From Marivita lacus (GTDB taxonomy: Bacteria > Pseudomonadota > Alphaproteobacteria > Rhodobacterales > Rhodobacteraceae), in contig NZ_BMFC01000001.1 in the NCBI RefSeq assembly GCF_014637725.1, positions 560,632-624,631 of the forward strand: DNA of 64,000 nt, in the 5' to 3' direction. Made by a program: the position numbers and the translations under genes. Position 1 is the first letter of the stretch; each line of letters opens with the position of its first letter. The notes below the pieces were generated by a model. That model ran no database searches. It worked only from the letters and a program-made list of their open reading frames with translations, and was not told the DNA's origin. Positions 5,520 to 20,870 of the stretch are shown here, piece after piece.

Positions 5520-6535
5520 CCTTCGGCCTTTTGCGCCGAATTCTGCATCCAGACCCAACTGGTGCGGCACATGTCGAACAGGTCGTACTGCGCCTCGAAC
5601 CCCAGAACCGTCTTGGCAAGCGACGGGTCGGCATAGCTCGACGCCGCATCCCCATCGCGGCGGGGCGCGATCTTGTAGGGGATGTCGCGGTTGCTCGCGC
5701 GGGCATAGGTCGCGATCAGGTCCAACACCGAATATCCCCGCCCCGTGCCAAGATTCACGACATGACCTGTCCCGTCACGCTCCAGCGCGGCCAGCGATTG
5801 CACATGACCCTGCGCCAGATCGAAGACATGGATGTAATCACGCACACCCGTACCATCGGGCGTGGGATAATCGTCGCCGAACACCGACAGCACGGGCAAT
5901 TGGCCTGCCGCCACCTTGGCGACATAGGGCATGAGGTTGTCGGGTAGGCCTGCCGGGTCTTCGCCGATCAGCCCGGACGGATGCGCCCCCACCGGGTTGA
6001 AGTAGCGCAGCACGCCCACCGCCCAGCGCGGGTCGGAGGCCACGGTCTGTTCGATGATCTGTTCGCAGACCAGCTTGGAATGGCCGTACGGATTGCCATA
6101 GCTCAGCGGTTCGGTTTCCCGGATCGGCAGGTCGGCGGCGCTGCCATAGACGGTGGCCGAGGACGAAAACACCAGACGCCGCACATCGGCCGCATCCATC
6201 GCCTGCATCAGGGTGACCAGCCCGACGATGTTGTTCTGCATGTAGGCCAGCGGCTTGCGCATGCTTTCGCCGACCGATTTCGACGCCGCGAAATGGATCA
6301 CCGCGTCGATGTCGTGATCGGCAAACACCCGGTCCAGAAGAGCACGATCCAGCACATCGCCTTCGATGACATGCACGGCCTGACCGGTGACGGTCTCAAG
6401 CCGCGACGGAACATCCCGTGCGGAATTGCTGAAATTGTCGAGGACAAGAACCTCGTACCCGGCATTGACCAAAGCGACATGGGTGTGCGAGCCGATATAC
6501 CCGGCCCCTCCCGTCAAAAGCACGCGCTGTGTCAC
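5516..6535 (-). CDS. galE: UDP-glucose 4-epimerase
   Basis: A 339-residue short-chain dehydrogenase/reductase of the extended class. It interconverts UDP-glucose and UDP-galactose with tightly bound NAD. The nucleotide-binding motif TGGAGYIGSHT lies at the N-terminus, FSSSATVYG marks the catalytic Ser region and YGNPYGHSK holds the Tyr-x-x-x-Lys pair; RYFNPVGAHPSG and GTGVRDYIHV are typical of GalE. The chosen start is GTG at 6535 because GGAGG sits seven bases upstream and the resulting length fits the family; the longer frame to 6583 would add an unlikely leader. It stands next to glycosyltransferases, so it probably supplies UDP-galactose for surface glycan synthesis. Its stop overlaps the stop of the convergent gene. 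Confidence 0.93.
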   Translation of the reverse strand: MTQRVLLTGGAGYIGSHTHVALVNAGYEVLVLDNFSNSARDVPSRLETVTGQAVHVIEGDVLDRALLDRVFADHDIDAVIHFAASKSVGESMRKPLAYMQNNIVGLVTLMQAMDAADVRRLVFSSSATVYGSAADLPIRETEPLSYGNPYGHSKLVCEQIIEQTVASDPRWAVGVLRYFNPVGAHPSGLIGEDPAGLPDNLMPYVAKVAAGQLPVLSVFGDDYPTPDGTGVRDYIHVFDLAQGHVQSLAALERDGTGHVVNLGTGRGYSVLDLIATYARASNRDIPYKIAPRRDGDAASSYADPSLAKTVLGFEAQYDLFDMCRTSWVWMQNSAQKAEG

Positions 6536-6810
6536 AGGACACCTCCAGAAAACCCGCCCAGAACCGATGTTCTGCCTGCGCAACCGCTGCGCAAGCCCGT
6601 GTCCTACGCGCCAAATATGTTGTCAATCGGTACCTGTTCATGGTGAATTTCCGATCATTTCTGTCGCCGTGGTGACCACATTGTGGAAGGACCGCGGTGG
6701 GCTCAGGCCATGTGCGCCCTCTATAACAGCTCACTCTGAGCGGGTGCGCATAGCGCGTCAGACGTCGTCCGAATACAGACACAATGATTTCGGTCCCGCT
6801 CGGAACGCGT

Positions 6811-7689
6811 TCACCTGATCCGCATCATCGCCCGCGGGCGGCGCGACACCGTCAACGATGCAGCGGCCAGCACAACGAGTGTTGCGCCCGCCATGAACCG
6901 CAAGGTCGGCGTTTCGCCAAAGGCAAAGTATCCGGCGGCGGTAGAGAGCGGCAGGCTCATGTAGCCCAGCACCGACAGCACGCCTGCATCGCCGTTGAAA
7001 TGCGCCCGCAGGAAACAGGCCTGCGCGGATTGCGCGAACACCCCGATGGCCAGCAATGGCACAAGGTGGTCAGACGGGATGGGCTGCCATGACCAGAGCG
7101 CGAATGGCAGGGTGCAGAGCCCCAGACCCACGGTGTAGAAGGTCATCAGCACGATCGTCGGAGTGGCGCGCAATCGGCGGGTGACGATCACGGCACCCGA
7201 CCCGGTCAAAACGACCAACGCCAGCGCCATCAGCCCCGGACCCAGCGTGGTGCCATCGGGGTCGATGGCGATCAGCACCCCCAGCATGGCGACAATCGCG
7301 GCAAGCCATTGCCCACCGGTGACCCGTTCCCGCAGCAGCAGAGCCGCCAGTACCATCACCACAAGCGGACGGGTGAAATTCATCGTCGTGAACAGCGCCA
7401 GAGGCACGCGGGCGATGGCGAAATAGCTGGCGGTCAGCGTGGCCGCGCTCAGCCCGACGCGCAGCACTTGCAGGGGCAGGTCCGGCACCAGGGCAAAGCT
7501 GTGGCGGTTGCGCAGGATCCACGGCAACAACAGCACCAAACCGATCCCGGCCCGCAGGAACACGATCTGCGCCACGGGATAACCCAGCCCCAGCGCCTTG
7601 ACGATGCCCAGCGCCCAGATGTTCAGCGCCATATCGGCCAATAGCCACGCACCGCCCCTGACATTGTCGCGCGGCGCGTCTGGGTTCAT
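6811..7689 (-). CDS. EamA-family (drug/metabolite) permease
   Basis: A 292-residue, very hydrophobic protein with about ten membrane segments in two repeated halves, the EamA/DMT layout. The first repeat includes VFLRAGIGLVLLLPW and the second ALVVLTGSGAVIVTRRL. The start is ATG at 7689, which overlaps the PIG-L stop in the arrangement ATGA, so translation is probably coupled. Members export metabolites or amino acids, or import nucleotide sugars; the substrate cannot be read from sequence. As third gene of the ROK/PIG-L operon it is a good candidate to export a product of the deacetylase or of the divergent ABC import system. Confidence 0.85.
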   Translation of the reverse strand: MNPDAPRDNVRGGAWLLADMALNIWALGIVKALGLGYPVAQIVFLRAGIGLVLLLPWILRNRHSFALVPDLPLQVLRVGLSAATLTASYFAIARVPLALFTTMNFTRPLVVMVLAALLLRERVTGGQWLAAIVAMLGVLIAIDPDGTTLGPGLMALALVVLTGSGAVIVTRRLRATPTIVLMTFYTVGLGLCTLPFALWSWQPIPSDHLVPLLAIGVFAQSAQACFLRAHFNGDAGVLSVLGYMSLPLSTAAGYFAFGETPTLRFMAGATLVVLAAASLTVSRRPRAMMRIR

Positions 7690-10019
7690 CGGCGCGGAGC
7701 GATCAGGTTCGCCATCAGGCGGTAGGCACCGGGCACCAGCCGCGCAATCTGGGTGTGCAACACGAGGCTGCAATGGGTGTGCCGCCCATTGCCGATCTCG
7801 GCGGTCAACAGCCCACCTTTCAGCGGCTCTTCACCGGGGTCGGACATGGACAGCAAAGGCGTATAGGCGTCATCCCAGCTCTTGGCGAAATAGAGACCGC
7901 GTTCCTTGACCCATCCCTGCCAATCCGCGTCGGTGATCCGGTTCGGCTCGGACAGCACCGGATGGTCGGTCAGATGCGTGACTTCGGCCTCTGCATCGGT
8001 CACGCGCCAGCGCAGCGAGGGCTGCCCGATTTCGAGCCTGCGCGGCGGAACAGTCTCTGGATCCCAGTTGTCCCATGGCCTGTGATAGAGGGTCAGAAGC
8101 GTACCGCCGGCCTCGACCCAGTCCCGCAAGCGGGGCATTTCCGACACCAGCCCGTCCCGGAACCGCAGCGCGAAGATGCCGATCACAATCGTGTCGAACC
8201 CGGCCAGCGCATCGTCACTGGTGATCTGATCGTCGCTCAGTACGGTCACATCGACACCCAGCGCGTTCAGCCACTCTGCCACCGCATCATGCCCGCTGCC
8301 GATATAGCCGACCTTGGCCTCAGGCAGCGCCACGTCCAGCACGCGGACGGTCAGCGCGGCAGGTCGGGCATGCACGGTCGGGTCGACATGGTCATGGGCG
8401 ATGCGCTGTTCGGTCATCGCCGGATCATCCCCGACAAACAGCGGCAGGGAATGAAGCCCCGGCTCCGGGTCGTCGGGCAGAACGATCTCGACACCACCCG
8501 CCGCCTGCTGCGTGCTCCAGCCTTCGGGCAGATCGAAACTCACCCGGCGGCCTGCCGGGCTGACATCGGCGATCCCGACCAAGACACTGCGTTTGGGCGT
8601 TTTCAGGTTGATCAGAGCCGCATCCGGCGCGATCAGCGCGGCGCGGTCCGGCAGGATCACCGGCGGTGTCTCGAACGGCACCGCAACCGTGGCAGTCCCG
8701 AGCTTGATCTCGATGCGGGGCAGCGGGGGATCGGCTGGATCGTATTCAGGGCGGTACGGGTCAGTCTGATTGGCGTTGGCGGTAATGGTGATCCGACCGT
8801 CCTCTTCCGACCAGCCATAGGGCAGCGCAAGGCTGTGGCTGCACGCCTCGGCCGCGCCGGGGTCGAATTCGACCGTCACATCTGTGGTGTCGCCGGGGCG
8901 CAGCCACGTCTGGCCCGTGCGCGCGCGGGCCTCGACGCCAAGGGCAAGCCGCAGGACATGGGCAAGCTGCCGGTGCTTTGCAGCCAGTCGGTGGGCCATG
9001 TGCGCAGGGGCGTCCGCCTCGGCCAATTGGACCTGCTTGAGCGCATTCTGTGCCGTCACCGCCATATGGGTGACATGCGGGAAAGCCGATATGGTCTCGG
9101 TGATATGACCATGCGCCGCCAGGAGAAGATCTGCGATCTCGGGCGCCTGACCGGCCAGATCCGCCAGGGTTTGCGGCAAGCCCGCGCCCAGCGCATCATC
9201 CGGCCCGTCCACATGGCTGACGGCAAGGTGCAGGGGCCAGTCCCTGCCCGGTCCGGCAGGGACCCAACGCCCCATGCCTTGGGTGCGGTGACAGGCGCGC
9301 GACATCTGGCCGATGCGGGCATATCTCCAGCCGGACATCGGGTCTTTCCCTGCGCCGTCGATGGTCAGCGTCGCCTCGGGGGGCGGCAGATCGTCGTCAT
9401 AGGCCTGCCCTGCACCGGACCACGCGGGCAGGTACATCTTGGACACCTGCCAGGGCGGCAGATTCGACGGAAAGTCGGGATCGGCGGCAGCGGTCATCAC
9501 CTCATGCGCGGCTTGGGTCATGGCGCGGTGGTGGCCGTGCTGACCGGGCACGTCGAGGAAAGTGGGCAGGATGATATCCGGGCGATCGGTGCGCACAATC
9601 TCGACAAAGCGGTGCAGGAGATGGTCGTGCCCCCAGATGCCCATCGTCTCTTCGCCGCTTTTCGAGAACCGGAAATCCCGGATCGGATCGTCGGGCGAGG
9701 TGCCGTGCCAGTAAAGCCGCATGTTCAGAAGATCGCAGGCGCGTTCCATCTCACGCGTCCGCAAAGCGCCCAGCGCCGGGCCGCTTTCGGTGCCGATGTC
9801 ATTCTGTCCGCCCTCGCCACGGGTGGAGCACGCGTAGCTGAGGTTGATGCCGTCACGCAGACCGATGGCGGCAAGCAGCGCGGTGGTTTCGTCGTCGGGA
9901 TGCGCGCCGGTGTTCATCAGCCGCACCACCGATTGCAGCGGACGCAGCGCCCACCACAGATCAAGCACGCGCGGGCGCATCCGGGTCTCTTGCAGGCGGG
10001 TCTGGTCTTGGGTCGGCAT
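7686..10019 (-). CDS. PIG-L (LmbE) family deacetylase with a large C-terminal extension
   Basis: A 777-residue protein. The N-terminal 250 residues are a PIG-L zinc-dependent de-N-acetylase: the metal motif GAHPDDE at 38-44 and HGHHRAMTQ at 161-169. Known members remove acetyl from N-acetylglucosaminyl compounds, such as mycothiol and bacillithiol precursors or GPI intermediates. Residues of about 380-560 look beta-rich. The last 220 (TIVIGIFALRFRD, then GGTLLTLYHRPWDNWD) resemble a class I amidotransferase-like or ThuA-like fold without an obvious catalytic Cys. Single-domain members are about 230-300 residues, so this is a multidomain form. The start ATG at 10019 has GAGGT upstream. It lies 3 bp after the ROK regulator and overlaps the permease start, so one operon is likely. 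Substrate unknown. Confidence 0.85.
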   Translation of the reverse strand: MPTQDQTRLQETRMRPRVLDLWWALRPLQSVVRLMNTGAHPDDETTALLAAIGLRDGINLSYACSTRGEGGQNDIGTESGPALGALRTREMERACDLLNMRLYWHGTSPDDPIRDFRFSKSGEETMGIWGHDHLLHRFVEIVRTDRPDIILPTFLDVPGQHGHHRAMTQAAHEVMTAAADPDFPSNLPPWQVSKMYLPAWSGAGQAYDDDLPPPEATLTIDGAGKDPMSGWRYARIGQMSRACHRTQGMGRWVPAGPGRDWPLHLAVSHVDGPDDALGAGLPQTLADLAGQAPEIADLLLAAHGHITETISAFPHVTHMAVTAQNALKQVQLAEADAPAHMAHRLAAKHRQLAHVLRLALGVEARARTGQTWLRPGDTTDVTVEFDPGAAEACSHSLALPYGWSEEDGRITITANANQTDPYRPEYDPADPPLPRIEIKLGTATVAVPFETPPVILPDRAALIAPDAALINLKTPKRSVLVGIADVSPAGRRVSFDLPEGWSTQQAAGGVEIVLPDDPEPGLHSLPLFVGDDPAMTEQRIAHDHVDPTVHARPAALTVRVLDVALPEAKVGYIGSGHDAVAEWLNALGVDVTVLSDDQITSDDALAGFDTIVIGIFALRFRDGLVSEMPRLRDWVEAGGTLLTLYHRPWDNWDPETVPPRRLEIGQPSLRWRVTDAEAEVTHLTDHPVLSEPNRITDADWQGWVKERGLYFAKSWDDAYTPLLSMSDPGEEPLKGGLLTAEIGNGRHTHCSLVLHTQIARLVPGAYRLMANLIAPRR

Positions 10020-10022
10020 GTG

Positions 10023-11198
10023 TTACCTCGCTTCGGCGATGGTGGGTGTAAAGGCCTGGTGCAACACGAGGGCGGCGGCACCCAGAGTTGCGGTCATGCG
10101 GCCTGACGTGCCGCGCATCAGACGTGGATGCACGCGGTCTGGCCGGTTGGACACAGAGCGTTCGGGCAGCACCGTGCGGGCGATGATGTGATCCAGCAGC
10201 ACATCGGGCATCGCGCCACCAAGTATCACGGTTTCCGGATCGAACAGGTTTTCAATGATCGACAGCGCCGCAGACAATGCCTGCGCCGCCTGATCCAGCC
10301 ACAGCATCAGATGCCGGTTTGCGCTGGAATAGAGACTGGTAAGATCATCCATGGTCGTGACATCCATGCCCTGTCGGGCCAAACAGGCTTGCACCGACAA
10401 ACGACTGGTCGCGCTTTCGAGTTCCACCGGTCGCCCGTCGACAAGCACCTGAATGTGGCCGATCTCTCCGGCGTTGCCGAAAGCGCCTTGCAGGATCTGA
10501 CCGTTCTGGACAAGGCCGAGGCCAAGCCCCTGACCGAAATAGAGATAGGCGAAATCATCCAGACCGCGTGCCACACCGTTCATCCGTTCGGCCATCGCCG
10601 CTGCGTTGGCATCGTTCTCGACAAAGACCGGAAGCTCAAGCGCGGTTGCGAAGATCTCCGCGGGGTCGCCGATGTTCCAGCCGGGAAGCTCGGACGCGGT
10701 GCCGGTCAGGCCGGTGTCGCCAAACGGGCCGGGCATGACGATCCCTGCGCCCATGAGCATGTGTCTCTGCACCTGCGTTTGCGACAGGGCGTGATCGAGT
10801 TGGGCACAAACAGTGTCGAGGATCACGCCTTTCGTCGGGTCTTTCAGCGGTGTGCGGTGCGTGAGGATCGGGGTTCCCACCAGATCGACCAGCGCGGTGA
10901 ACATCGCGGTGGGCCGCACCTCGACACCAAAGGCATAGCCGCCTCCGGGTCTGATGGCATATTGCTGCACCGGCAGGCCGCGCCCGGCGCTGCGGTGGCC
11001 CTGTTCGACCAGCAGCCCTTCGGCCAGCAGATCAGAGATGATGTTCGATACCGCTTGAGTGGACAGCCCAGAGGCGCGGGCGATTTCGGCGCGCCCGATG
11101 GTGCCGGAATGGCGCACCGCCCGCAGAACCAACTGTTTGTTGTGGCTGCGCGCGCGTTCGGGATTCGCGCCAAGTTTCGGTTTCAGCGTCGTGACCAT
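10023..11198 (-). CDS. ROK-family transcriptional regulator
   Basis: A 391-residue protein with an N-terminal winged helix-turn-helix (GRAEIARASGLSTQAVSNII, about residues 35-55) and a C-terminal ROK sugar-kinase-like fold (VENDANAAAMAER; GEIGHIQVLVDG). ROK repressors usually sense a sugar or amino sugar. The usual zinc motif CxCGxxGCxE after GEIGH is absent: VDGRPVELESATSRLSV stands there instead. The frame is also open to a GTG at 11228; I prefer the ATG at 11198 because a 17-bp inverted repeat covers the GTG. It probably controls both its own operon (PIG-L deacetylase, EamA permease) and the divergent ABC operon. Confidence 0.85.
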   Translation of the reverse strand: MVTTLKPKLGANPERARSHNKQLVLRAVRHSGTIGRAEIARASGLSTQAVSNIISDLLAEGLLVEQGHRSAGRGLPVQQYAIRPGGGYAFGVEVRPTAMFTALVDLVGTPILTHRTPLKDPTKGVILDTVCAQLDHALSQTQVQRHMLMGAGIVMPGPFGDTGLTGTASELPGWNIGDPAEIFATALELPVFVENDANAAAMAERMNGVARGLDDFAYLYFGQGLGLGLVQNGQILQGAFGNAGEIGHIQVLVDGRPVELESATSRLSVQACLARQGMDVTTMDDLTSLYSSANRHLMLWLDQAAQALSAALSIIENLFDPETVILGGAMPDVLLDHIIARTVLPERSVSNRPDRVHPRLMRGTSGRMTATLGAAALVLHQAFTPTIAEAR

Positions 11199-11226
11199 GC
11201 CTTCGCTTAGCGCACCAAACTTGAAC

Positions 11227-11243
11227 ACTCAAGAAAGTTGAGT
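11227..11243. promoter_or_regulatory. Inverted repeat between the ROK regulator and the ABC operon (candidate ROK operator)
   Basis: ACTCAA, five bases, TTGAGT: perfect 6-bp arms, seen directly. It lies in the short divergent region between the ROK gene (minus) and the solute-binding protein gene (plus), about 75 bp upstream of the latter. Position and symmetry fit an operator for the adjacent ROK protein; the assignment is inferred. Confidence 0.5.
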
Positions 11244-11316
11244 TAACGCTTGGAGATTGACCGGTCCCGACCAAGGATGGGCTGGCGTTTCAACAGATCT
11301 CAACAGGGAGAGGTCC

Positions 11317-12585
11317 ATGACATTCTTCAACGTCAAAGCATTGGCCGTTGCGACAGCAACCAGCGCCGCTGCTCTTTTCAGCACTGCCGCACAGGCAGTA
11401 GAAATCGAATACTGGCAATACTTCTTCGACACTCGGGTCGAGGCGATGGAAACACTGATCGAGAATTTCGAGGCGGCGAACCCGGACATCACGGTCAAGA
11501 TGACCCATTTCCCCTATGCCGATTACCGCACCAAAGTTGCCGCAGCGATCCCGGCCGGCGAAGGCCCGGATGTGGTGCAGCTGTTCTACGGCTGGCTGAA
11601 CGATTATGTCGCCGCCGACCTGATCCAGCCGCTGCCTTCGGACGTGTTCCCCGCAAGCAAGATCGACGCGGAGTTCTTTCCGATGGTGCAGGCCATGAAG
11701 GAAGGCGATCAGTACTGGGCGCTGCCCACTGCCGTACGGTCGCTTGCCCTGTTCTACAACACACGCCTGCTGGAGGAAGCCGGGGTCGAGCCGCCCACCA
11801 CGCTGGACGAGATGATCGCCGCTGCAAAGGCGATGACCAAGCGCGATGGCGCGGGCAACCTGACGCAAGTTGGCATGACCGCCGGCATGACCGCGCAGGA
11901 TCACCATTGGTGGCGCGAGGGCCTTGTGCGGCAGTTCGGCGGGGAGCCTTATGTCGATGATTACCAGACGGTGAACTACAACAATGAGGCGGGTCTCGAG
12001 GCGCTGAATTTCTATTCGAGCCTCTTCATGGGCGACGACGCGGTGACGTCGATCGGGTTCATGGACGAGCCTCAGGCGGCCTTCAAGGCCGGGCGCGCGG
12101 GGCTGCATATCGACGGGTCGTTCCGCATCGGGTCGCTGGAAGGCCAGCGCGGCCTGAATTGGGGTGTGACCGAGCTTCCGGCGACGGCGGATGGCACGCA
12201 GTCGAATTATGCGTCCTACTGGGTGAACGCGATCACCACCAAGGCCGAGGGCGAGAAATACGACGCGGCGGTCAAGTTCATGGAGTACATCACCGGTGAC
12301 GAGGCGATGCAGGTCTGGCTGGATGTGGTCGGTGAACTGCCCGCCAAGCCTTCGGTCGGCATGACGGATGAAAACGCGAGTGACCCGGTCTTTGGCCCGT
12401 TCATTCGGGGGCTGGAATACGCCCACACCACCAAGTTCGCCAATGAAAGCGGCCAGCGGCAGGTGATGGTGGAAATGGTCGAGCGCATGACCCTTCAGGG
12501 CATGAGCGCCGAGGACAGCCTTGCCATTGCGGCCGAAGCCGAACAGAAGATCCTCGACGATTATTACAAGAGCGCGTCGAACTGA
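11317..12585 (+). CDS. ABC transporter extracellular solute-binding protein (sugar type)
   Basis: A 422-residue periplasmic protein with a clear signal peptide (Lys near the N-terminus, an Ala-rich hydrophobic core, likely cleavage after AQA, mature start VEIEYWQYFF). It is like family 1 solute-binding proteins: MTHFPYADYRTKVAAAIPAG, GPDVVQLFYGW, and RSLALFYNTRLLEEAGVEPP, where the linker motif for sugar-type proteins sits. The start at 11317 has GGGAGAGG upstream; the longer frame from 11257 would bury the signal peptide. It is the first gene of an importer operon with two permeases, a lyase and an ATPase. The ligand cannot be read; a carbohydrate or sugar conjugate is most likely by family and by the ROK regulator. 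Confidence 0.9.
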   Translation: MTFFNVKALAVATATSAAALFSTAAQAVEIEYWQYFFDTRVEAMETLIENFEAANPDITVKMTHFPYADYRTKVAAAIPAGEGPDVVQLFYGWLNDYVAADLIQPLPSDVFPASKIDAEFFPMVQAMKEGDQYWALPTAVRSLALFYNTRLLEEAGVEPPTTLDEMIAAAKAMTKRDGAGNLTQVGMTAGMTAQDHHWWREGLVRQFGGEPYVDDYQTVNYNNEAGLEALNFYSSLFMGDDAVTSIGFMDEPQAAFKAGRAGLHIDGSFRIGSLEGQRGLNWGVTELPATADGTQSNYASYWVNAITTKAEGEKYDAAVKFMEYITGDEAMQVWLDVVGELPAKPSVGMTDENASDPVFGPFIRGLEYAHTTKFANESGQRQVMVEMVERMTLQGMSAEDSLAIAAEAEQKILDDYYKSASN

Positions 12586-12601
12586 TCGCACGAAACGGAC
12601 G

Positions 12602-12624
12602 CCCCGGGAGCCTTTGGGCCGGGG
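12602..12624 (+). terminator. Hairpin between the solute-binding protein and permease genes
   Basis: CCCCGG and CCGGGG form a perfect 6-bp GC stem with an 11-base loop in the 61-bp gap. There is no following run of T, so it is more likely a mRNA-stabilising or attenuating hairpin that keeps the binding protein more abundant than the permeases. Confidence 0.4.
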
Positions 12625-12646
12625 TGTCCCCTTTTCGGACACAGGC

Positions 12647-13534
12647 ATGTATCGCAATCTGACCATCCGGCAGAAACAGATCGTCTGGGCATGGGCGTTT
12701 CTGGCCATTCCAATCCTGTTCTACACGGTGATCCGGTTCTATCCGACAGGCAACGCCATCCTGATCAGCTTTCAGGACTGGAACCTGCTGGGCGACCGGA
12801 CCTGGACTGGTTTTGACAATTACCAGACGCTGTTCGCCGATCCGGTGTTCTGGAAGGTGTTCCGGAACACCTTTGTCTATCTGCTGATCGGCACGCCCGT
12901 CAGCCTGATCATTTCCTTCGTGATCGCCTATCACCTGGATCAGGTTCGGTTCATGCACGGGTTCCTGCGGATGCTTTACTTCCTGCCCTTCATGACCAGC
13001 GCCGTTGCGATGGCCTGGGTGTGGCGGTGGTTTTACCAGCCGGTGCCGGTGGGGTTGTTCAACAATGCACTGGCGAGCATGGGCATCCCCCAGTTCCCGT
13101 TCCTGCAATCGACCACCTGGGCGCTGCCGTCGGTTCTGGCCCCGGCGGTCTGGGCAGGGCTTGGATTTCAGGTGATCATCTTCATGGCCGGGTTGCGGGC
13201 GATCCCGCGCAGTTATTACGAGGCCGCACGGATCGACGGGGTGTCGTGGTGGACGGTGCTGTGGGAAATCACGCTGCCGCTCTTGAAGCCGACCATCGTG
13301 TTCATCGTGGTGTTCAGCTCCATCGGGTTCCTGCGCATCTTTGACCACGTGTTCAACATGACGACGAACAATCCCGGCGGGCCGTTGAACAGCACCAAAC
13401 CGCTGGTGCTGATGATCTACGAGACCGCATTCAGCGCCTTCGACATGGGGTATGCGGCCGCGCAGACGGTGGTGTTGTTCCTTGTTCTGCTGGTGGTGAG
13501 CCTGATCCAGCTGCGCATCCTGAGGGACAGCTGA
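12647..13534 (+). CDS. ABC transporter permease, MalF/UgpA type
   Basis: A 295-residue inner-membrane protein with six predicted membrane segments. The cytoplasmic EAA loop that contacts the ATPase reads EAARIDGVSWWTVLWEITLP near residue 195. It starts at ATG 12647, where conserved sequence begins (MYRNLTIRQKQIVWAW); the longer frame from 12521 overlaps the preceding gene. It pairs with the next permease as the channel of the importer. The stop overlaps the next start by one base (TGATG), so the two are translationally coupled. Confidence 0.9.
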   Translation: MYRNLTIRQKQIVWAWAFLAIPILFYTVIRFYPTGNAILISFQDWNLLGDRTWTGFDNYQTLFADPVFWKVFRNTFVYLLIGTPVSLIISFVIAYHLDQVRFMHGFLRMLYFLPFMTSAVAMAWVWRWFYQPVPVGLFNNALASMGIPQFPFLQSTTWALPSVLAPAVWAGLGFQVIIFMAGLRAIPRSYYEAARIDGVSWWTVLWEITLPLLKPTIVFIVVFSSIGFLRIFDHVFNMTTNNPGGPLNSTKPLVLMIYETAFSAFDMGYAAAQTVVLFLVLLVVSLIQLRILRDS

Positions 13535-14409
13535 TGGCCGTTACCGAAATCCGCCCGACGACCGACGCGCTGCTCAAGACGGACGCGCCGAAGAAGCCCG
13601 CGAACATGGGGCAGATCATCCGCTGGACGCTGCTGTTTCTGGGTGGCGTCGCGATGGTGATGCCCATCGCCTACATGATCTCGACCTCGCTGAAATGGCC
13701 GCATGAGGTCTATAACCTCAAGCTGATCCCGGACGAGCCGCATCTCGAGAACTACACCTATGTGCTCGAGGACGGGCGGTTCTACTGGTGGTTCCTCAAT
13801 TCGATGATCATCGCGGTGATCACCACCGTGTGTAACGTGATCTTCGACTCTCTGGTGGGCTACACGCTGTGCAAGTTCCGCTTTCCGGGCCGGTACATCG
13901 TGTTCATCGCGATCCTGTCGACGTTGATGATCCCGACCGAGATGCTTGTGATCCCCTGGTACCTGATGAGCCAGCAATTCGGGTGGCTGGACACCTATTG
14001 GGGCATCATGTTCCCCGGCCTGATGACGGCCTTCGGCACCTTCCTGATGAAGCAGTTTTTCGAAACCGTTCCCGACGATTTCATCGAAGCGGCGCGAATC
14101 GACGGGCTGAACGAGTTGCAGATCTGGTGGACCGTGGCGATGCCATTGGTGAAGCCCGCGCTGGCCGCACTGGCGATCTTTGTCTTCCTCGGAAACTGGA
14201 CCGCGTTCATCTGGCCGCTGATCGTCACCAATTCGGTCGAAATGTATACCCTGCCGGTCGGGCTGTCGTCCTTTGGCGACGAGGCCGATGTGGCCTGGGA
14301 GTTGATCATGACGGGGGCCGCGATTTCGACCATTCCGACACTGATCGTGTTCCTGATCTTCCAGCGCTACATCATCCAGGGCGTGGTGATGGCGGGGCTC
14401 AAGGGATGA
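13534..14409 (+). CDS. ABC transporter permease, MalG/UgpE type
   Basis: A 291-residue inner-membrane permease and second half of the channel. A first membrane segment follows a soluble N-terminus (LLFLGGVAMVMPIAYMISTS), then a periplasmic loop with a Trp-rich stretch (FYWWFLNSM). The EAA motif EAARIDGLNELQIWWTVAMP lies near residue 188. It begins on the last base of the previous gene's stop codon. After its stop come 64 bp, including an A/G-rich stretch, before the lyase gene, all on one strand. Confidence 0.9.
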   Translation: MAVTEIRPTTDALLKTDAPKKPANMGQIIRWTLLFLGGVAMVMPIAYMISTSLKWPHEVYNLKLIPDEPHLENYTYVLEDGRFYWWFLNSMIIAVITTVCNVIFDSLVGYTLCKFRFPGRYIVFIAILSTLMIPTEMLVIPWYLMSQQFGWLDTYWGIMFPGLMTAFGTFLMKQFFETVPDDFIEAARIDGLNELQIWWTVAMPLVKPALAALAIFVFLGNWTAFIWPLIVTNSVEMYTLPVGLSSFGDEADVAWELIMTGAAISTIPTLIVFLIFQRYIIQGVVMAGLKG

Positions 14410-14473
14410 CGGGGCACGGTTTGGCAGGCGTCGTTTTGGCATATTTGGAAAAAGAAGAAGCAGGGGGCGGCGC

Positions 14474-15961
14474 ATGACGGACCAGAGCGTGTTTCCGGAC
14501 CCGACCTATCGGGACACCGTGCTTGCACCTTTGTTCGAGGGTGTGAAGGCGCATTACGCGGGGCATATGGGCGCGATCAACCGCGCGCATCTGGTGATGC
14601 TGGCGGAGACCGGGATCCTGCCTGCGGGTGAGGCGGACGCGATAGCGAGGGCCTTGCGGGAAATCGAGACAGAGACAGATATCGACGCGCTGACCTATAC
14701 CGGCGAGTTCGAGGATTATTTCTTTCTGGTCGAGGCAGAGTTGAAACGCCGGTTGGGCGATCTGGGCGGGGCCCTGCACACCGCGCGGTCGCGCAATGAC
14801 ATGGACCATACGCTGTTCAAGCTGGCGCTTCGGGATCGGGTGGCGGTGCTGCTGAAGCAGGCGTTGACCTTGACCGAGGCGCTGATTGCCAAGGCGGAGG
14901 CCGAGAAAGCGACTTTGATCGTGGCTTATACGCACGGGCAACCGGCGCAACCGACGACCTGGGGGCATTATCTGGGTGCGGTGATCGAGGTTCTCTTGAG
15001 GGACATTGCGCGGCTCAACGCGGCGGCGGACGGGTTGGAGCATTGCCCGATGGGCGCTGCCGCGATCACCACAAGCGGGTTCCCGATAGACCGGGCGCGC
15101 ATGGCGGACTTGCTGGGGTTTTCCGGACCGTTGGTCAATTCCTATGGCTGTATCGCGTCCGTCGATTACGTGACCGGGCTTTATTCCGCGATGAAGCTGA
15201 TGTTCCTGCATCTGGGCCGGGTCATTCAGGACATGCAGTTCTGGACCGCCTTCGAGGTGGGGCAGCTGTATGTGCCCAACAGCCTTGTGCAGATCAGTTC
15301 GATCATGCCGCAAAAGCGCAACCCGGTGCCGATCGAGCATCTGCGCCATCTGGCGAGCGCGACGGTGGGGCAATGCGATGCCATCGTGAATGTCATGCAC
15401 AACACGCCCTTCACCGACATGAACGACAGCGAAGGCGAGGTGCAGCAGTTGGGATATGCCGCGTTCGACCGCGGTGCGCGGGTGTTGCAGTTGCTGACCG
15501 CGCTGATCCCGGCCTGCCGGGTGAATGTGGATCGGGTGCGACGGACCACCGACTCGGCCTGCATCACGATCACCGAACTGGCGGACACGCTTGTCCGCGA
15601 CGAAGGGCTGAGTTTTCGTGCGGCACATGAGGTCGCGGCGGCGACAGCGAAGGCAGTGATTGCCGAAGGGGCAGCTTTGGGGGATGGGTTTGCGCCGTTT
15701 CGCAGCGCTTTTGCCGCGCAGACCGGGCGCGAGACCGGGTTGTCGGAGGAGCAGTTCCGCACGGCCGTTGCGCCCGAGACATTCGTGGCGCGGCGGGATC
15801 GGACCGGGGGACCGGCGGAGGCTGCCATGTCCGAGGCCTTGGGGCAGTATTCGGCGACGGCGCAGGCCGCCCGCGCGGTCTGTGCCGAACGCAAAAACAG
15901 ACACGAAACCGCACAACAGAGACTGAATACGGCGTTTGACGCGCTGCTGGTGAAGGACTGA
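14474..15961 (+). CDS. Argininosuccinate-lyase-like enzyme of the fumarase/aspartase superfamily
   Basis: A 495-residue lyase with the superfamily motifs in order: HTARSRNDMD near 105, AYTHGQPAQPTTWGH near 155, and the signature loop SSIMPQKRNPVP near 275 carrying the catalytic Ser. Members eliminate fumarate from substituted aspartates or succinates. It differs from housekeeping ArgH in detail (ArgH usually has HTGRSRNDQ and GYTHLQRAQP) and lies inside an ABC importer operon between permease and ATPase, so arginine synthesis is an unlikely role. A catabolic lyase acting on the imported compound, comparable in principle to ethylenediamine-disuccinate lyase, is my inference. The ATP-binding gene follows after 2 bp. 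Confidence 0.75.
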   Translation: MTDQSVFPDPTYRDTVLAPLFEGVKAHYAGHMGAINRAHLVMLAETGILPAGEADAIARALREIETETDIDALTYTGEFEDYFFLVEAELKRRLGDLGGALHTARSRNDMDHTLFKLALRDRVAVLLKQALTLTEALIAKAEAEKATLIVAYTHGQPAQPTTWGHYLGAVIEVLLRDIARLNAAADGLEHCPMGAAAITTSGFPIDRARMADLLGFSGPLVNSYGCIASVDYVTGLYSAMKLMFLHLGRVIQDMQFWTAFEVGQLYVPNSLVQISSIMPQKRNPVPIEHLRHLASATVGQCDAIVNVMHNTPFTDMNDSEGEVQQLGYAAFDRGARVLQLLTALIPACRVNVDRVRRTTDSACITITELADTLVRDEGLSFRAAHEVAAATAKAVIAEGAALGDGFAPFRSAFAAQTGRETGLSEEQFRTAVAPETFVARRDRTGGPAEAAMSEALGQYSATAQAARAVCAERKNRHETAQQRLNTAFDALLVKD

Positions 15962-15963
15962 CC

Positions 15964-17019
15964 ATGGCCGACCTTGCGATCAGAAATCTGGTCAAACGCT
16001 ATGACAAGACCGAGGTGCTGCATGGCATCAGCCTTGATGTCGAAGATGGCGAGTTCGTCGTGTTTGTCGGCCCGTCGGGCTGTGGCAAATCCACAACGCT
16101 GCGTCTGATCGCGGGGCTGGAGGACGCGACACAGGGCGAGATCGTGATCGGTGGGCGCGTGGTCAACAACCTCGAGCCCAAGGACCGGGATATCGCGATG
16201 GTGTTCCAGAACTACGCGATCTACCCGCACATGACCGTGCGCAAGAATATCGGCTTTGGACTGCGCACAGCAAAGATGTCGAAGGCGGACAAGGAAGCGC
16301 GGATCGACGAAGTGGCGGGCATTCTGGGGATGACCGATCTTCTGGCGCGCAAGCCCAGCCAGTTGTCCGGCGGGCAACGGCAGCGCGTTGCCATCGGGCG
16401 GGCGATGGTGCGTGATCCGGCGGTGTTTCTGTTTGACGAGCCGCTGTCGAACCTCGATGCGCAGTTGCGCACGCAGATGCGGCTGGAGATCAAGAAGCTG
16501 CACCAGCGGGTCGGCAACACGATCATCTTCGTCACCCATGATCAGGTCGAGGCGATGACGATGGCGGATCGGATCGTCATCATGAAGGACGGGCATATCC
16601 AGCAGGTCGGCACACCTGCCGAGGTCTATCACAAGCCCGCCAACACCTTTGTCGCCGGGTTCATTGGTGCGCCGTCGATGAACATGCTGTCGGGTTCGGT
16701 GTCGCAGGGCAAATTGCGGCTTGGGTCGGGGACCATGCTGGACCTTGGGCTGGACATGGCGGAAGGGCGCGCTGTCACGGTGGGTGTGCGGCCCGAAGAC
16801 CTGCATCCCGGTGATGGCCCTGCGCTTGTACGCGGGCCGGTGACGGTGCGCGAACCGCTGGGGCACGAGACGCTGATCTATGTCGGGGCCGAGGGGCAGG
16901 AAGTGATTGCCAAGGCGGATGGGCGCACGCCGCCGGAGGTCGGGCAAGAGGTGACCTTGACCGCTGCGGTGGAGACGCTGCACATTTTCGATGCAGCAAC
17001 CGGCGATGCGTTGCGGTGA
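15964..17019 (+). CDS. ABC transporter ATP-binding protein, MalK/UgpC type
   Basis: A 351-residue ATPase that drives the importer. Walker A is GPSGCGKSTT (about 37-46), the Q-loop is VFQNYAIYPHMT, the ABC signature LSGGQRQRVAIGRA lies near 136, Walker B is VFLFDEPLSNLD and the switch His is in THDQVEAMTMADR. A C-terminal regulatory region of the MalK/TOBE type starts near residue 235 (FIGAPSMNML; GVRPEDLHPG). Every catalytic motif is intact. It lies two bases after the lyase gene, so the lyase is physically embedded in the transporter operon. Confidence 0.93.
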   Translation: MADLAIRNLVKRYDKTEVLHGISLDVEDGEFVVFVGPSGCGKSTTLRLIAGLEDATQGEIVIGGRVVNNLEPKDRDIAMVFQNYAIYPHMTVRKNIGFGLRTAKMSKADKEARIDEVAGILGMTDLLARKPSQLSGGQRQRVAIGRAMVRDPAVFLFDEPLSNLDAQLRTQMRLEIKKLHQRVGNTIIFVTHDQVEAMTMADRIVIMKDGHIQQVGTPAEVYHKPANTFVAGFIGAPSMNMLSGSVSQGKLRLGSGTMLDLGLDMAEGRAVTVGVRPEDLHPGDGPALVRGPVTVREPLGHETLIYVGAEGQEVIAKADGRTPPEVGQEVTLTAAVETLHIFDAATGDALR

Positions 17020-17043
17020 AGTGACCACGAAAGGCAGGATGCA

Positions 17044-17670
17044 ATGATCGATCTTTACACCTGGACCACACCGAACGGGCGCAAGGTGTCCATCCTTCTC
17101 GAAGAGCTGGGCGTGCCCTACAGCGTGCACTCGATCGACATCGGCAAGGACGAGCAGTTCGCGCCGGAGTTCCTCAGGATCTCACCCAACAACAAGATCC
17201 CGGCGATTGTCGATCAGGAGACTGGGCTTTCGCTGATGGAGAGCGGGGCGATCCTGCTGTATCTCGCGCAGAAGCATGACCGGTTCCTGGCCAAAGGCGA
17301 CGCGTATTGGCGGATGATGGAATGGCTGATGTGGCAGATGGGCGGGTTTGGCCCGATGCTGGGTCAGGCGCATCATTTCCTGAAGTTCAACAGGGGTGTG
17401 TCGGATTATGCCGAGGTGCGGTACGGCACAGAGGCCGCGCGGCTCTATTCCGTGCTCAACACCCATCTGGACGGGCGGGATTACGTGGCCGGGGACTATG
17501 GCATCGCCGATATGGCGATCTTTCCATGGGCGGCGCGGTTCGAGTGGCAGGATGTGGACCTGAACGATTTTCCCCATGTCAGGGACTGGTATCTGCGGAT
17601 TTCAGATCGACCGGCAGTACAGAAGGGCTATCAGGTTCCGAAATTCGTCACGGAGATTCCGATGCCCTGA
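17044..17670 (+). CDS. Glutathione S-transferase, YfcG/nu-class-like
   Basis: A 208-residue cytosolic protein with an N-terminal thioredoxin-like domain (DLYTWTTPNGRKVSILLEE; LSLMESGAILLYLA) and a helical C-terminal domain (YVAGDYGIADMAIFPW). The TPNGRKV motif is typical of YfcG/YghU-like enzymes, which reduce disulfides or conjugate glutathione. It starts 24 bp after the ABC ATPase and is probably the last gene of the operon, which hints that the imported compound or a breakdown product is electrophilic or thiol-bearing. It could also be an unrelated passenger. Confidence 0.85.
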   Translation: MIDLYTWTTPNGRKVSILLEELGVPYSVHSIDIGKDEQFAPEFLRISPNNKIPAIVDQETGLSLMESGAILLYLAQKHDRFLAKGDAYWRMMEWLMWQMGGFGPMLGQAHHFLKFNRGVSDYAEVRYGTEAARLYSVLNTHLDGRDYVAGDYGIADMAIFPWAARFEWQDVDLNDFPHVRDWYLRISDRPAVQKGYQVPKFVTEIPMP

Positions 17671-17682
17671 ACCGGGCATCGG
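17659..17682. terminator. Perfect hairpin between convergent gst and ask genes
   Basis: CCGATGCC and GGCATCGG pair perfectly (8 bp) around an 8-base loop that contains the gst stop codon. It fills most of the 23-bp gap to the convergent aspartokinase gene, so it may end transcription from both sides. No T run follows, so termination strength is uncertain. Confidence 0.45.
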
Positions 17683-17693
17683 AGAGGTGTTGA

Positions 17694-19118
17694 TCAGGCC
17701 GCGCGCGACAGGTGCGCTGGGACATCTTCGATCAGTTCGGCATGGAGCGCCTTGATCACGTCTTCCATGGAATCGCGGTCCATCACGAATTGCACGTCGA
17801 CGTTGCGCGGACCCTGGCTGGCGCCGATGGCCTCGCGTCCGGCCTTGGCGATGGCTTGCAGGCCGCGCGTCAGGATGGACAGACCGTTGAGATCACGACC
17901 GATGACCGACACCATGGCCAGTCGGCGGCTGGTGATCTCTGCGGCCGGGAACAGCTTGGCGATGTCACGTTCCACCCGGCGCATCGTCTTGAGCGATGCG
18001 TCCAAATAATGTGTGATCGTGTTGGCGTTCGAGGTCTTGGACACGATGCGGACATTGTGCCGGGTCAGAACGTCAAGGATGCCTGCATCATACCCTTTGA
18101 CGCCAACCATGTCCTGTTCGAACACCTCGAGCGTCACGATATCAAGTCCGGTGACGATTTCCGCCGCAGGTTTGTCTGCAGGTTGGTCGTCGATCAGCGT
18201 GCCGGGATCGCCGGGATCAAAGGCGTTTGTGACGCGCAGAGGCACACCCGCCTGACGCAAGGTCTTGGCCGCCTTGGGGTGGATCGCCTCCATCCCCATG
18301 TTGGACAGCTGGTCCGCCACGTCATAATTCGTGCGGCCGAGTTTGCGCACCGCCCCTTCACCGACCAGCTTGGGATCGGCAGAGGACAAGTGGAATTCCT
18401 TGTGGATGATCGCCTCGCGGGCGCCGGTTAGGGCGGCCAGATGCGAAAAGGTCACTTCGGAATAGCCCCGGTCGAATTCGTTCATCAGCCCTTCGACGCA
18501 TTGCGCATAGCCGGTGACGATGGGCATTTCGACGGACGGGTCGATGCCTTCGAACGCGCCGGTGATCCGCTTTTCAAGACAGACATCGCCCTCGTCGCGC
18601 CAGCCTGACAGGTCCACGAACAGCGCTTCGACGCCGCTGCGCTGAAGCATCAGCGACGTGACATAAGCCGAATGGGATTCCCCCAGACCGGACAGCAGTT
18701 CGCGGATATGACCCATATGTTCGGGCAGGCGGAAGTGGCCGTAGGAACACAGGCGCTGCAGGTCGATCAGGCAGTTGCGGGCGCCGAGGATGCGCTCATC
18801 GACAAAAAGGTCCGCCTGCTGAATGTCAGCCTTGTGGGTCAGGAGTTCCCCGTGCGCCGCCTTCATCGCAACTGCGACATCATCCAGCGCGTCCTGCCAT
18901 TTGTGGTTGCTGTCGTTATGCGCAAAGAGCGCATAGACACCGGGTTCGCCCGATTTCTTGTGCTCCAGCAGCAGGTTGGTGATCCCGGCAAAAGCGGAAA
19001 CCACGAAGATGCGGTTGTAGATGTCCGTCATTCCGCGATCCCCGATGAAGAGCGTCTCTTTCAATTCGGAGAGGCGGGACATGGATGTCCCGCCGATCTT
19101 TTCCACAGTATGTGTCAT
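17694..19118 (-). CDS. ask: Aspartate kinase of the ectoine cluster (Ask_Ect)
   Basis: A 474-residue aspartokinase: VEKIGGTSMSRL at the N-terminus, a kinase core with GYAQCVEGLMNEFDRGYSE and ALTGAREAIIHKE, and two ACT-like regions near the C-terminus. It phosphorylates L-aspartate, the first step toward aspartate semialdehyde, the precursor of ectoine. The ectoine-linked subfamily is generally regarded as less feedback-inhibited. The start at 19118 lies one base after the ectC stop; the longer frame to 19148 overlaps ectC. Last gene of ectA-ectB-ectC-ask, it lets aspartate supply rise together with ectoine synthesis. Confidence 0.9.
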   Translation of the reverse strand: MTHTVEKIGGTSMSRLSELKETLFIGDRGMTDIYNRIFVVSAFAGITNLLLEHKKSGEPGVYALFAHNDSNHKWQDALDDVAVAMKAAHGELLTHKADIQQADLFVDERILGARNCLIDLQRLCSYGHFRLPEHMGHIRELLSGLGESHSAYVTSLMLQRSGVEALFVDLSGWRDEGDVCLEKRITGAFEGIDPSVEMPIVTGYAQCVEGLMNEFDRGYSEVTFSHLAALTGAREAIIHKEFHLSSADPKLVGEGAVRKLGRTNYDVADQLSNMGMEAIHPKAAKTLRQAGVPLRVTNAFDPGDPGTLIDDQPADKPAAEIVTGLDIVTLEVFEQDMVGVKGYDAGILDVLTRHNVRIVSKTSNANTITHYLDASLKTMRRVERDIAKLFPAAEITSRRLAMVSVIGRDLNGLSILTRGLQAIAKAGREAIGASQGPRNVDVQFVMDRDSMEDVIKALHAELIEDVPAHLSRAA

Positions 19119-19119
19119 T

Positions 19120-19521
19120 TCAGGCGTCCTCGGTTTCCGGCGCGGCATAGGACCCGTCTTCGCGGTGGACTTCGGTGCCGGTCACCGGCGGATTGAAGCA
19201 GCATGCCATGACCAGTTCTTCTTCGGCGCGCAGCACATGGCGGTCATGCTTGTCGAGCGCATACATTACGCCGGGCGTGATCTCGTGGGTCTCGTCCGTG
19301 GCAAGGTCGGTGATCGAGCCCTTGCCCTTCATGCAATACACGCTTTCGAAGTGGTTCTTGTATTCGAACGTGTGTTCGGACCCTTCTTCCAGAAAGGTGA
19401 TGTGGAACGAAAAGCCCATCTTGTCTTCGGCCAGCAGCATCCGGACGCTTGTCCAGTTGGCATTCGCGACAACGCGGTGCTTTTCTTCCGCAACGAGCTT
19501 GTTGAAGTCTCTGACGATCAT
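19120..19521 (-). CDS. ectC: L-ectoine synthase
   Basis: A 133-residue cupin enzyme that cyclises N-gamma-acetyl-2,4-diaminobutyrate to ectoine with loss of water, in the cytoplasm. The sequence [19 protein letters not shown] opens it, [19 protein letters not shown] carries cupin metal ligands, and [12 protein letters not shown] with [13 protein letters not shown] completes the barrel. Length and order are those of EctC, intact end to end. It starts just after ectB and is followed immediately by ask. A hydroxylase gene (ectD) is not in the cluster, so hydroxyectoine is not predicted from this locus. Confidence 0.96.
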
Positions 19522-19525
19522 TGTG

Positions 19526-20818
19526 TTACTCCGCTGCGAGTGTCTTGTGACTGGACAGGATATCGGTCGCTGCTGCGAGCAGGATCTCGAAGCCCTTGCG
19601 CAGGGTATCCTTGGGCGTTGTCAGAGGTGCGAGCACCTTGATCACCTGATCTTCGCTGCCCGAAGTTTCGATGATCAGACCGTTTTCATAGGCCCGCGCG
19701 CAGATCGCGCCCGCCAGATCACCTGATCCGACATCGACGCCCTGCATCAGGCCACGCCCCTTGAGGAACGCTCCGGGCACCATCGCGGCCAGATCGGACA
19801 GCGCATCGTGCACCATCTGCGATTTCTCGGACAGTTCCTTCTGGAAGCTGTCATCGGCCCAGAATTTCTCGACCGCGACCCTTGCGGTGACAAAGGCATG
19901 GGTGTTGCCCCGGAAGGTGCCGTTGTGCTCGGCCGGACCGAAAATGTCGTATTCCGGGCGCACCAGCAGCATCGCCATGGGCAGACCGAAACCGGAGATG
20001 GATTTGGCCATCGTGACGATATCGGGCATCACGTCCATCTCTTCGAACGAGAAGAACGTGCCGCAGCGGCCACAACCGGCCTGAACGTCGTCGACGATCA
20101 GAAGCGCGCCGTGGTCCTTGGCAAGCTTTGCAATCCGCTTGACCCATTCTGGGCTGGCCGCGTTCAGGCCACCTTCACCCTGGACGGTTTCCAGCAGGAT
20201 CGCGGCAGGCGCATCGATGCCGCCGGATTTGTCGGACAGCATCGCGTCAAGGAATTCCGCCGTATCGGTTTGGCCGGGGAAGTAATTGTCGAACGGCATG
20301 CGCGTGACGCCGTTCAGCGACATGCCCGCACCGCCGCGGTGATAGCCGTTGCCGGTGGCCGCAAGAGCGCCGGATGTCACACCGTGAAACCCATTGGTGA
20401 AGGCAATCACGTTGGTGCGTCCCGTGACCTTGCGCGCGATCTTCATCGCTGCTTCGACGGCATTGGCACCGGTCGGACCGGTGAACATCACCCGGTGATC
20501 CATGCCGCGCGGTTCAAGGATGTGCTGTTCAAAGCTTTCCAGGAACGCCGCCTTGGTGTTGGTGTGCAGGTCGAGACCATGCGCGATTCCGTCGTTCGAG
20601 ATATGCTCGATCAGCGCAGCCTTCATGTCGGGGTCGTTGTGGCCGTAGTTCAGCGAAGAACATCCGGCGAGGAAGTCGATATAGGTCTTGCCGGTGTCGT
20701 CGGTGATCTCGGACCCGCGCGCCATCGTGAAGGTTGCGGGCATCCCGCGGCAATAGGAGCGCGCCTGGCTTTCGCGGCGTTCGTAAATCGAATCGGTCGT
20801 GTTCATGTCCTTGGGCAT
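19526..20818 (-). CDS. ectB: Diaminobutyrate-2-oxoglutarate transaminase
   Basis: A 430-residue PLP-dependent class III aminotransferase that makes L-2,4-diaminobutyrate from aspartate semialdehyde and glutamate. Motifs: [20 protein letters not shown] near the start, [18 protein letters not shown] (cofactor phosphate binding), [18 protein letters not shown], and [14 protein letters not shown], whose Lys binds PLP. The frame is open upstream to 20956, but AGGA lies six bases before the ATG at 20818 and conserved sequence begins at [10 protein letters not shown]. Only about 50 bp separate it from ectA. Second gene of the ectoine operon. Confidence 0.95.
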
Positions 20819-20870
20819 CATGTGTCCTTTCAAGGCATTTGAATTGAATTTTGGGAATAGAACGCGTGGT

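Follow-up and report, generated by a model that had tools for sequence, protein, structure and literature searches.

The divergent operon of Marivita lacus

The window analysed here is a stretch of 64,000 nucleotides from the genome of the alphaproteobacterium Marivita lacus, and its part at 6811-17670 holds nine genes, all of them full frames that begin with ATG and contain no internal stop, which form two arms separated by a divergent region of 118 bases (Table 1). The leftward arm encodes an EamA carrier, a PIG-L amidohydrolase and a ROK repressor, with a 4-base overlap between the EamA and PIG-L genes, and the rightward arm a periplasmic binding protein, two permeases, an ArgH-like lyase, the importer ATPase and a glutathione S-transferase (GST). 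The gene set, its order and the shared control region are those given in a preliminary description made from the sequence of the window, and assignments by Pfam and NCBIfam models agree with the families named there. The nearest solved structure of the binding protein is GacH 3k01 (acarbose/maltose; 96.6 bits), the ROK protein shows MarR_2 and HTH_24 matches slightly below their cut-offs, and the EamA carrier is proposed to export cysteine or another by-product. That we are dealing with one conserved catabolic unit can hardly be doubted. It is also likely that this unit acts on a conjugate from which it releases an amino sugar and fumarate, and the chances that this conjugate belongs to the glucosaminyl-malate and bacillithiol family are evenly poised.

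Table 1. Genes and candidate operator of the divergent operon, in window coordinates.
Feature	Position	Strand	Supporting match
EamA/DMT-family exporter, 292 aa	6811..7689	-	PF00892 70.3 bits
PIG-L/LmbE amidohydrolase, 777 aa	7686..10019	-	PF02585 62.7 bits; motifs AHPDD, QHGHH
ROK repressor, winged helix-turn-helix (HTH), NagC/Mlc type	10023..11198	-	PF00480 105.8 bits
Divergent operator candidate (proposed ROK site)	11220..11243	.	CTTGA-N4-TCAAG overlapping ACTCAA-N5-TTGAGT
Periplasmic binding protein, CUT1 sugar-type importer (SBP_bac_1/8)	11317..12585	+	SBP_bac_8 132.5 bits
Importer permease 1 (BPD_transp_1)	12647..13534	+	PF00528 52.8 bits
Importer permease 2 (BPD_transp_1)	13534..14409	+	PF00528 71.3 bits
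ArgH-like lyase (Lyase_1/ASL_C2), 495 aa; proposed glucosaminyl-malate lyase	14474..15961	+	PF00206 143.3 bits
Importer ATPase, UgpC/MalK type	15964..17019	+	PRK11650 493.5 bits, cut-off 432
Nu-class-like GST (YfcG-like disulfide reductase)	17044..17670	+	PRK13972 192.3 bits, cut-off 332

Conservation and co-occurrence

A search with PIG-L of 101 genomes (the own genome and 100 relatives) gave matches in 21 of them, including 11 of the 17 genomes of the window's genus, its own among them, whereas a class-wide sample of 385 genomes gave 10, two overlapping with the first set. Among the 20 loci of relatives from the first search, the lyase lies in the same stretch in 18, with a full-length ROK gene as well in 17, and 18 loci keep whichever genes they have in the same order and orientation, so the arrangement is not due to chance. 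All eight further loci from the class-wide sample carry the lyase. In this line, a larger sample was seeded by PIG-L motifs with the context ignored, and consisted of the best 80 of at least 444 PIG-L relatives among named genomes. The lyase was found in 74 of these 80 loci, and in 72 of the 73 whose upstream sequence reaches 6 kb or more; in the latter set the binding protein and both permeases occur in 72, the ATPase in 71 and ROK in 64 (69/80 for ROK overall), while an EamA gene lies within 600 bp of PIG-L in 47/80. The association of PIG-L, ROK and lyase recurs in many genomes. The hosts, many of them marine or soil bacteria, are mostly Rhodobacterales and Hyphomicrobiales; Skermanella, Granulosicoccus and a Chromatiales symbiont also belong to them. 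Moreover, PIG-L is present on 21 plasmid records (8 of them read in detail), which suggests movement between hosts; the lyase has matches in 251 plasmid records, five of which were read from among 60 listed.

Linkage of PIG-L and lyase was also followed in 40 hand-picked genomes, comprising 22 of the 29 PIG-L-positive genomes and 18 from the same genera or families lacking PIG-L, with true lyase copies scoring above 560 bits and the other listed ArgH-like proteins at most 212. Both genes occur in 21 genomes and neither in 18; the lyase is never alone, and PIG-L is alone once. In the seven PIG-L genomes outside this set the lyase was always in the fetched stretch. The Fisher value for the association (1.7e-10) ignores relatedness and is not used here as evidence. 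The single exception (G012; locus L038, 8478-11217) has PIG-L split into two frames, only short ATPase and ROK matches and an intact GST, and neither lyase nor importer was found in this copy; the operon seems to be decaying there as a unit. In another genome (G094) importer and lyase share one contig, and a second contig carries PIG-L beside a glucokinase (PF02685). The lyase adjoins PIG-L with no sugar importer in three genomes that belong to a single genus, and the one scanned with Pfam (L070) carries peptide-type SBP_bac_5 importer genes alongside; PIG-L and lyase consequently look like the core of the system.

The most distant copy lies on a plasmid of Deinococcus ficus (L158, 7061-16677), where ROK, lyase, a PIG-L with NEW3 and CBM9 domains, binding protein, permeases, a second PIG-L and a PfkB kinase occur in one run, in which no ATPase was found. 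Identities to the window proteins are 43% for the binding protein, 44% and 51% for the permeases and 35% for the lyase, and the best model for the second PIG-L is MshB, below its cut-off. Bacillithiol has been reported from the Deinococcus-Thermus lineage itself (in the part of PMC6282198 available), which makes this copy worth study.

Clustering of the called genes in the 80 loci revealed no further conserved partner, with a simple gene caller by which some genes are overlooked or wrongly placed in part of the loci. The recurrent neighbours, named by eye, belong to common families such as aldehyde dehydrogenases, Opp permeases, short-chain dehydrogenases and response regulators.

The PIG-L protein

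The PIG-L protein is built from an N-terminal zinc-hydrolase domain, a strand-rich middle and a C-terminal domain of the ThuA/GATase1 type. LmbE/PIG-L enzymes bind their metal through HxDD and a distal His, with ligands 2 and 3 spaced 97-148 residues apart (as given in the part of PMC4101496 available). In the window protein H40, D42 and D43 (AHPDD) and H164 (QHGHH) conform to this pattern, with a spacing of 121. The predicted model (pLDDT 90.2) has MshB 4ewl as its nearest fold (Z 21.1, 232 residues aligned, 3.1 Å), followed by diacetylchitobiose deacetylases (Z 19-20) and BshB 6ull (Z 19.5, 199 aligned, 2.6 Å); the C-terminal 210 residues match STM3548 (2gk3; Z 17.3, 193 aligned, 3.2 Å) and ThuA/GATase1-like folds too. 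The search barely covered the middle region (about 270-550), and a common fold does not show function. According to the part of a review available to us, the LmbE-like enzymes then known all act on N-acetyl- or N-acylglucosamine cores (PMC4101496), and the window protein probably opens an N-acyl amino sugar.

The likeness to BshB and Bca comprises the catalytic motif, the fold, the expected N-acyl-glucosamine substrate and glucosaminyl-malate as predicted product. The window protein is nonetheless much larger, with extra domains and scores far below the BshB2 and Mca cut-offs (the two curated models used for this comparison; no Bca model matched), and it occurs in genomes without BshC, tied to an importer, a lyase and a kinase, an arrangement expected for degradation rather than synthesis.

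A lyase with an altered leaving-group pocket

The operon lyase shares with ArgH the fold, the SS-loop (SSIMPQKRNP) and the catalytic His and Ser, here H154 and S276. Its predicted model (pLDDT 90.5) reaches Z 36.1 both with 1tjw, a delta crystallin with argininosuccinate (444 aligned, 2.9 Å), and with EDDS lyase 6g3e (461 aligned, 2.7 Å), which are jointly the closest solved structures. The comparison with EDDS lyase, an enzyme of Chelativorans, was one of fold and overall identity (28%), and searches of open-licence PMC papers for EDDS gave nothing useful.

What sets the protein apart is the side of the active site that holds arginine in ArgH. M. lacus has a separate and ordinary ArgH elsewhere (G000:C1:739153), with 30% identity to the operon lyase, and its segment KGLPLAYSKDMQEDK is replaced by HNTPFTDMNDSEGEV in the latter. 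The arginine-side residues, Y323, Q328 and K331 of the duck protein, are kept as Tyr, Gln and Lys in this ordinary ArgH and replaced by D315, E320 and V323 in the operon lyase. The Asp and Glu at the Tyr and Gln positions are present in 31 of 31 aligned lyase copies, and a motif N-x-P-[FY]-x-D-x-N-D in 73 of 73 lyases checked, 64 of them matching a stricter form with His and Phe and 9 not. It reads NTPFTDMND in the window and HNVPFGDIND in D. ficus. A plasmid of Cupriavidus carries a lyase match (36% identity) with none of the partner genes, and this unlinked ArgH-like protein does not have the motif. Because a second, ordinary ArgH is encoded in the genome, the operon lyase should be dispensable for arginine; a housekeeping ArgH was rejected on this ground together with the replaced arginine-side residues. 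The additional acidic residues would be well matched to an amino sugar as the leaving group.

Members of this superfamily generally cleave C-N and C-O bonds of succinate derivatives (in the part of PMC13411527 available), and one of them, the 2SL lyase, cleaves C-S bonds (in the part of PMC9706529 available), which places a malyl ether within reach of the chemistry. The operon lyase probably releases fumarate. Public records for loci L059-L066 and L155-L157 call it argininosuccinate lyase, mostly with a GO term for arginine biosynthesis, a label that is probably a widespread misannotation.

Kinases and deaminases beside the unit

PfkB sugar kinases are unrelated to ROK proteins and glucokinases, and the latter two share a superfamily. 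A PfkB gene is found in 54 of the 73 loci with at least 6 kb upstream, and sits after the ATPase in most other genera. Where PfkB is missing, its place can be taken by a ROK protein with no listed HTH, taken as a kinase (L149, L150, L155, L157, L074 and Loktanella; the genera concerned include Skermanella, Wenxinia, Paroceanicella and Roseomonas), and one locus (L048) has a glucokinase beside PIG-L. The count of 4/80 for ROK kinases includes L091, a regulator with HTH, and L090, which leaves L149 and L150 as the two accepted as kinases in that set. The substitution of kinases of different families for one another suggests a need to phosphorylate a free sugar. Glucosamine-6-phosphate deaminases point to the identity of this sugar: NagB adjoins the unit in Loktanella (250.9 bits), Skermanella (257.2) and Paroceanicella (242.1), all above the TIGR00502 cut-off of 236.9, and in Roseomonas a NagB-II-like SIS protein lies beside it (313.4 bits, under the 430 cut-off). 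Such neighbours indicate glucosamine. A kinase of Sinorhizobium meliloti is, by inference from mutant data, a glucosamine kinase (in the part of PMC11378808 available), so direct phosphorylation of glucosamine has a precedent in this class.

Accessory and neighbouring genes

The preliminary description had given the GST a possible role in the pathway. In the loci of the 20 relatives, however, the GST adjoins the operon in 10/10 of the same genus and in 0/10 of the others, and it appears in 4 of the 80 best loci, all Marivita-like. A core step was consequently rejected, and the GST is better seen as an accessory of the window's genus among the loci examined. Its structural matches are 4l8e (219 bits) and YfcG 3gx0 (184 bits); it stays below the curated YfcG cut-off, though YfcG structures rank among the best matches. 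Small genes of the VOC fold, FosA-like, lie between permease 2 and the lyase in four separate loci (L081, of which L039 is a duplicate, L084, L089 and L093); the proteins scanned (L084, L093) resemble FosA and FosB weakly (29.0 bits or less for FosA, cut-off 250), and these genes were set aside as evidence, being too rare and too weakly matched. In Roseinatronobacter a gene of the cysteine dioxygenase family lies behind the operon. Together, the GST of Marivita, the VOC genes of four loci and this last gene weakly favour a thiol.

The palindrome ACTCAA-N5-TTGAGT of the divergent region (11227-11243) occurs as a single copy in the 64-kb window, where chance would give 0.06 copies if up to one mismatch is allowed. 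Across 68 intergenic regions between ROK and binding protein genes, CTCAA-N5-TTGAG is found in 18 and TAATT-N6-AATTA in 13, the highest palindrome count among 20 shuffles being 2; kinship of the sequences inflates these intergenic counts. On this basis, the ROK protein may bind the divergent palindrome. A promoter scan of 6500-17800 found no sigma-70-like promoter, which says little in this bacterial group, and no tandem repeats were found.

Downstream of the operon, at 17694-20956 on the minus strand, lie aspartokinase, EctC-like and EctB-like genes, by eye an ectoine cluster with no family call; aspartokinase or EctC neighbours adjoin the operon in several relatives of the genus too. On the other side (3243-5519, plus strand) a large protein with, by eye, a glycosyltransferase-type domain and another one is kept near the operon within the genus. 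Further away, 24001-28000 shows a strong AT skew (0.204) across a 981-codon minus-strand frame (25181-28126).

A proposed pathway

The observations on which the following model is built are gene content, conservation, co-occurrence, catalytic motifs, the altered leaving-group segment and the kinase and NagB neighbours. With the balance tipping only slightly in its favour, we propose a catabolic operon for a glucosaminyl- or N-acylglucosaminyl-O-malate compound scavenged from producer bacteria. To our knowledge, the only known N-acyl-glucosamine compounds with a fumarate-yielding group are N-acetylglucosaminyl-malate (GlcNAc-malate), derivatives of glucosaminyl-malate (GlcN-malate) and bacillithiol; the most likely cargo would be bacillithiol, its N-methyl form, disulfide or conjugates, or GlcNAc-malate. 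The CUT1 importer would take up this compound and PIG-L would hydrolyse the N-acyl bond to give GlcN-malate, removing cysteine as Mca and Bca do or acetate as BshB does. The lyase would then deprotonate the malyl group at its beta position and expel the sugar oxygen, yielding fumarate and free glucosamine, so that the glycosidic link would be cut through elimination rather than hydrolysis. This order of deacylation and elimination is the one we infer. A sugar kinase and NagB or NagB-II would convert glucosamine into fructose-6-phosphate and feed it into glycolysis, the ROK repressor would sense an amino-sugar signal, its presumed inducer, at the divergent palindrome, and the EamA carrier might export excess by-product.

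Compared with the catabolism of GlcNAc through NagABC and NagK, the unit shares a ROK regulator, a sugar-type importer, a kinase and, in some copies, NagB, but it has PIG-L in place of NagA, in a step proposed to precede phosphorylation, and a fumarate lyase in addition. The scheme of import, deacylation and fumarate release was already part of the preliminary description: uptake by a catabolic unit stands, the roles of PIG-L and lyase are probable, and the GST drops out as an integral step. Its idea of GlcNAc-malate or bacillithiol-like substrates gains from the kinases, the NagB and NagB-II-like neighbours, the MshB/BshB-like fold, the altered leaving-group pocket and the separate argH, the substrate itself being our inference. 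Where it had left an aspartyl or a malyl part as the source of fumarate, the malyl one is preferred and the aspartyl one not favoured.

Bacillithiol would probably have to come from other organisms. BshC (PF10079) was matched in none of 61 genomes, the own one included, with positive controls in Bacillus, Thermus and Deinobacterium, which makes biosynthesis by these bacteria unlikely. Among the possible producers there is a marine Polaribacter. In the part of PMC6282198 available, bacillithiol and its N-methyl form are described as widespread, with this Polaribacter making the latter, and synthesis is predicted for some Proteobacteria.

Several points weigh against this proposal. The lyase passes the TIGR00838 argH cut-off (301.4 versus 279.5 bits), PIG-L falls far below its curated cut-offs (24.9 versus 195.25 bits for BshB2, 26.2 versus 277.15 for Mca), and the binding protein resembles a maltose/acarbose binder. 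Three plasmids (Paroceanicella, Shinella, Roseomonas; chromosomes not searched) hold lyase and importer with no annotated PIG-L nearby, the Shinella copy also lacking an annotated kinase. As for the sugar steps, no recognised kinase was found in 15 loci with at least 9.9 kb upstream, the window's genus among them; no PfkB locus shows nagB; and the PfkB kinases resemble ribokinases and fructoselysine 6-kinase, all below cut-offs, with no match to a hexosamine-kinase model. In the own genome a search with no positive control gave no PfkB match at 1e-15, and no NagB match was found; a NagB-II-like gene (314.4 bits, under the cut-off) lies elsewhere, adjoining a NagA-like gene recognised by eye. 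The thiol-related accessories are patchy, and no sequence test would separate bacillithiol from other conjugates of an amino sugar and a C4 acid. The release of an amino sugar and fumarate is firmer than bacillithiol as the substrate.

Competing interpretations

Both ArgH and EDDS lyase, the nearest relatives of the operon lyase in sequence and fold, cleave C-N bonds, and some SIS proteins are deglycases. These facts fit a substrate in which an amino sugar is N-linked to aspartate, of the Heyns or Amadori type (e.g., an N-(1,2-dicarboxyethyl) hexosamine or fructosyl-aspartate, possibly N-acylated), from which the lyase would release fumarate and an amino sugar for the kinase and NagB; the PfkB of Aminobacter scores on the fructoselysine 6-kinase model (59.6 bits, cut-off 247). 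Such a substrate leaves no clear role for PIG-L, found in 21 of 21 lyase-positive genomes tested, and the deaminases speak otherwise, since the SIS protein of Roseomonas fits NagB-II best and the NagB of three genera passes the glucosamine-6-phosphate deaminase model. We regard it as unlikely, yet as the strongest competitor. An aspartyl group is also present in glycosylasparagine (GlcNAc-Asn), which combines N-acetylglucosamine with a C4 amino acid and on whose aspartyl part the lyase could act; elimination would there free ammonia rather than the sugar, and inspection by eye of the recurrent neighbours revealed no amidase for the bond that is left, so that this substrate is barely credible.

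The preferred reading, a malyl-linked amino sugar, has also to be compared with a simpler one, in which an ordinary amino-sugar oligosaccharide is imported and deacetylated by PIG-L while the lyase, a second argininosuccinate lyase, merely happens to be located in the operon. The argH score, the name in the public records read, the likeness of the binding protein to oligosaccharide binders and the kinship of diacetylchitobiose deacetylase with PIG-L all agree with this, but a genome with its own separate argH, the replacement of the arginine-side Tyr and Gln in all 31 aligned copies and a lyase that tracks PIG-L in 39 of the 40 picked genomes make it quite improbable, and no glycosidase was recognised by eye among the recurrent neighbours. 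Our first lead was the salvage of succinated thiols, where an S-(2-succino) lyase like 2SL would cut the C-S bond of succinated cysteine, glutathione or a thiol sugar. The enzyme 2SL is of the same lyase class, with a preference for the N-acetylated form of S-(2-succino)cysteine (in the part of PMC9706529 available), its pathway joins a superfamily lyase to a deacylation step and an ABC importer in one catabolic operon, and GST and FosA-like VOC genes accompany some copies of ours. The cleavage proposed here is C-O instead of C-S. In the eleven named plasmid loci read, the annotation shows no yxe partner within the operon; isolated GNAT genes in Thalassospira and Roseomonas and importers of amino acids in Rhizobium, which lie elsewhere in those plasmid stretches, were not compared with Yxe proteins. 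This reading also leaves the kinase and NagB without a function, and GST and VOC genes are rare. The lead was set aside, and its probability is lower still than that of the oligosaccharide.

Implications

The preliminary description knew of no pathway with this set of genes, and our searches, limited to open-licence PMC papers, found no description of one either; the part of PMC5270733 available does not describe a degradation pathway for bacillithiol. A malyl-linked amino sugar as substrate would have several consequences. Tentatively, and at somewhat less than an even chance, this would be the first catabolic pathway for bacillithiol-family thiols, in which Proteobacteria and a Deinococcus would import bacillithiol-type molecules of their neighbours, PIG-L would strip the cysteine and a fumarate lyase would cleave the sugar-malate bond. 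The predicted reaction, a C-O elimination of the sugar from a malyl glycoside, would represent a new activity, that of a glycoside-cleaving fumarate lyase hidden under the name argH. The argininosuccinate lyase annotations given in public records to this conserved and often plasmid-borne operon would then need correction, and its hosts would recover the sugar, the nitrogen, the C4 acid and perhaps the sulfur of molecules made by other bacteria.

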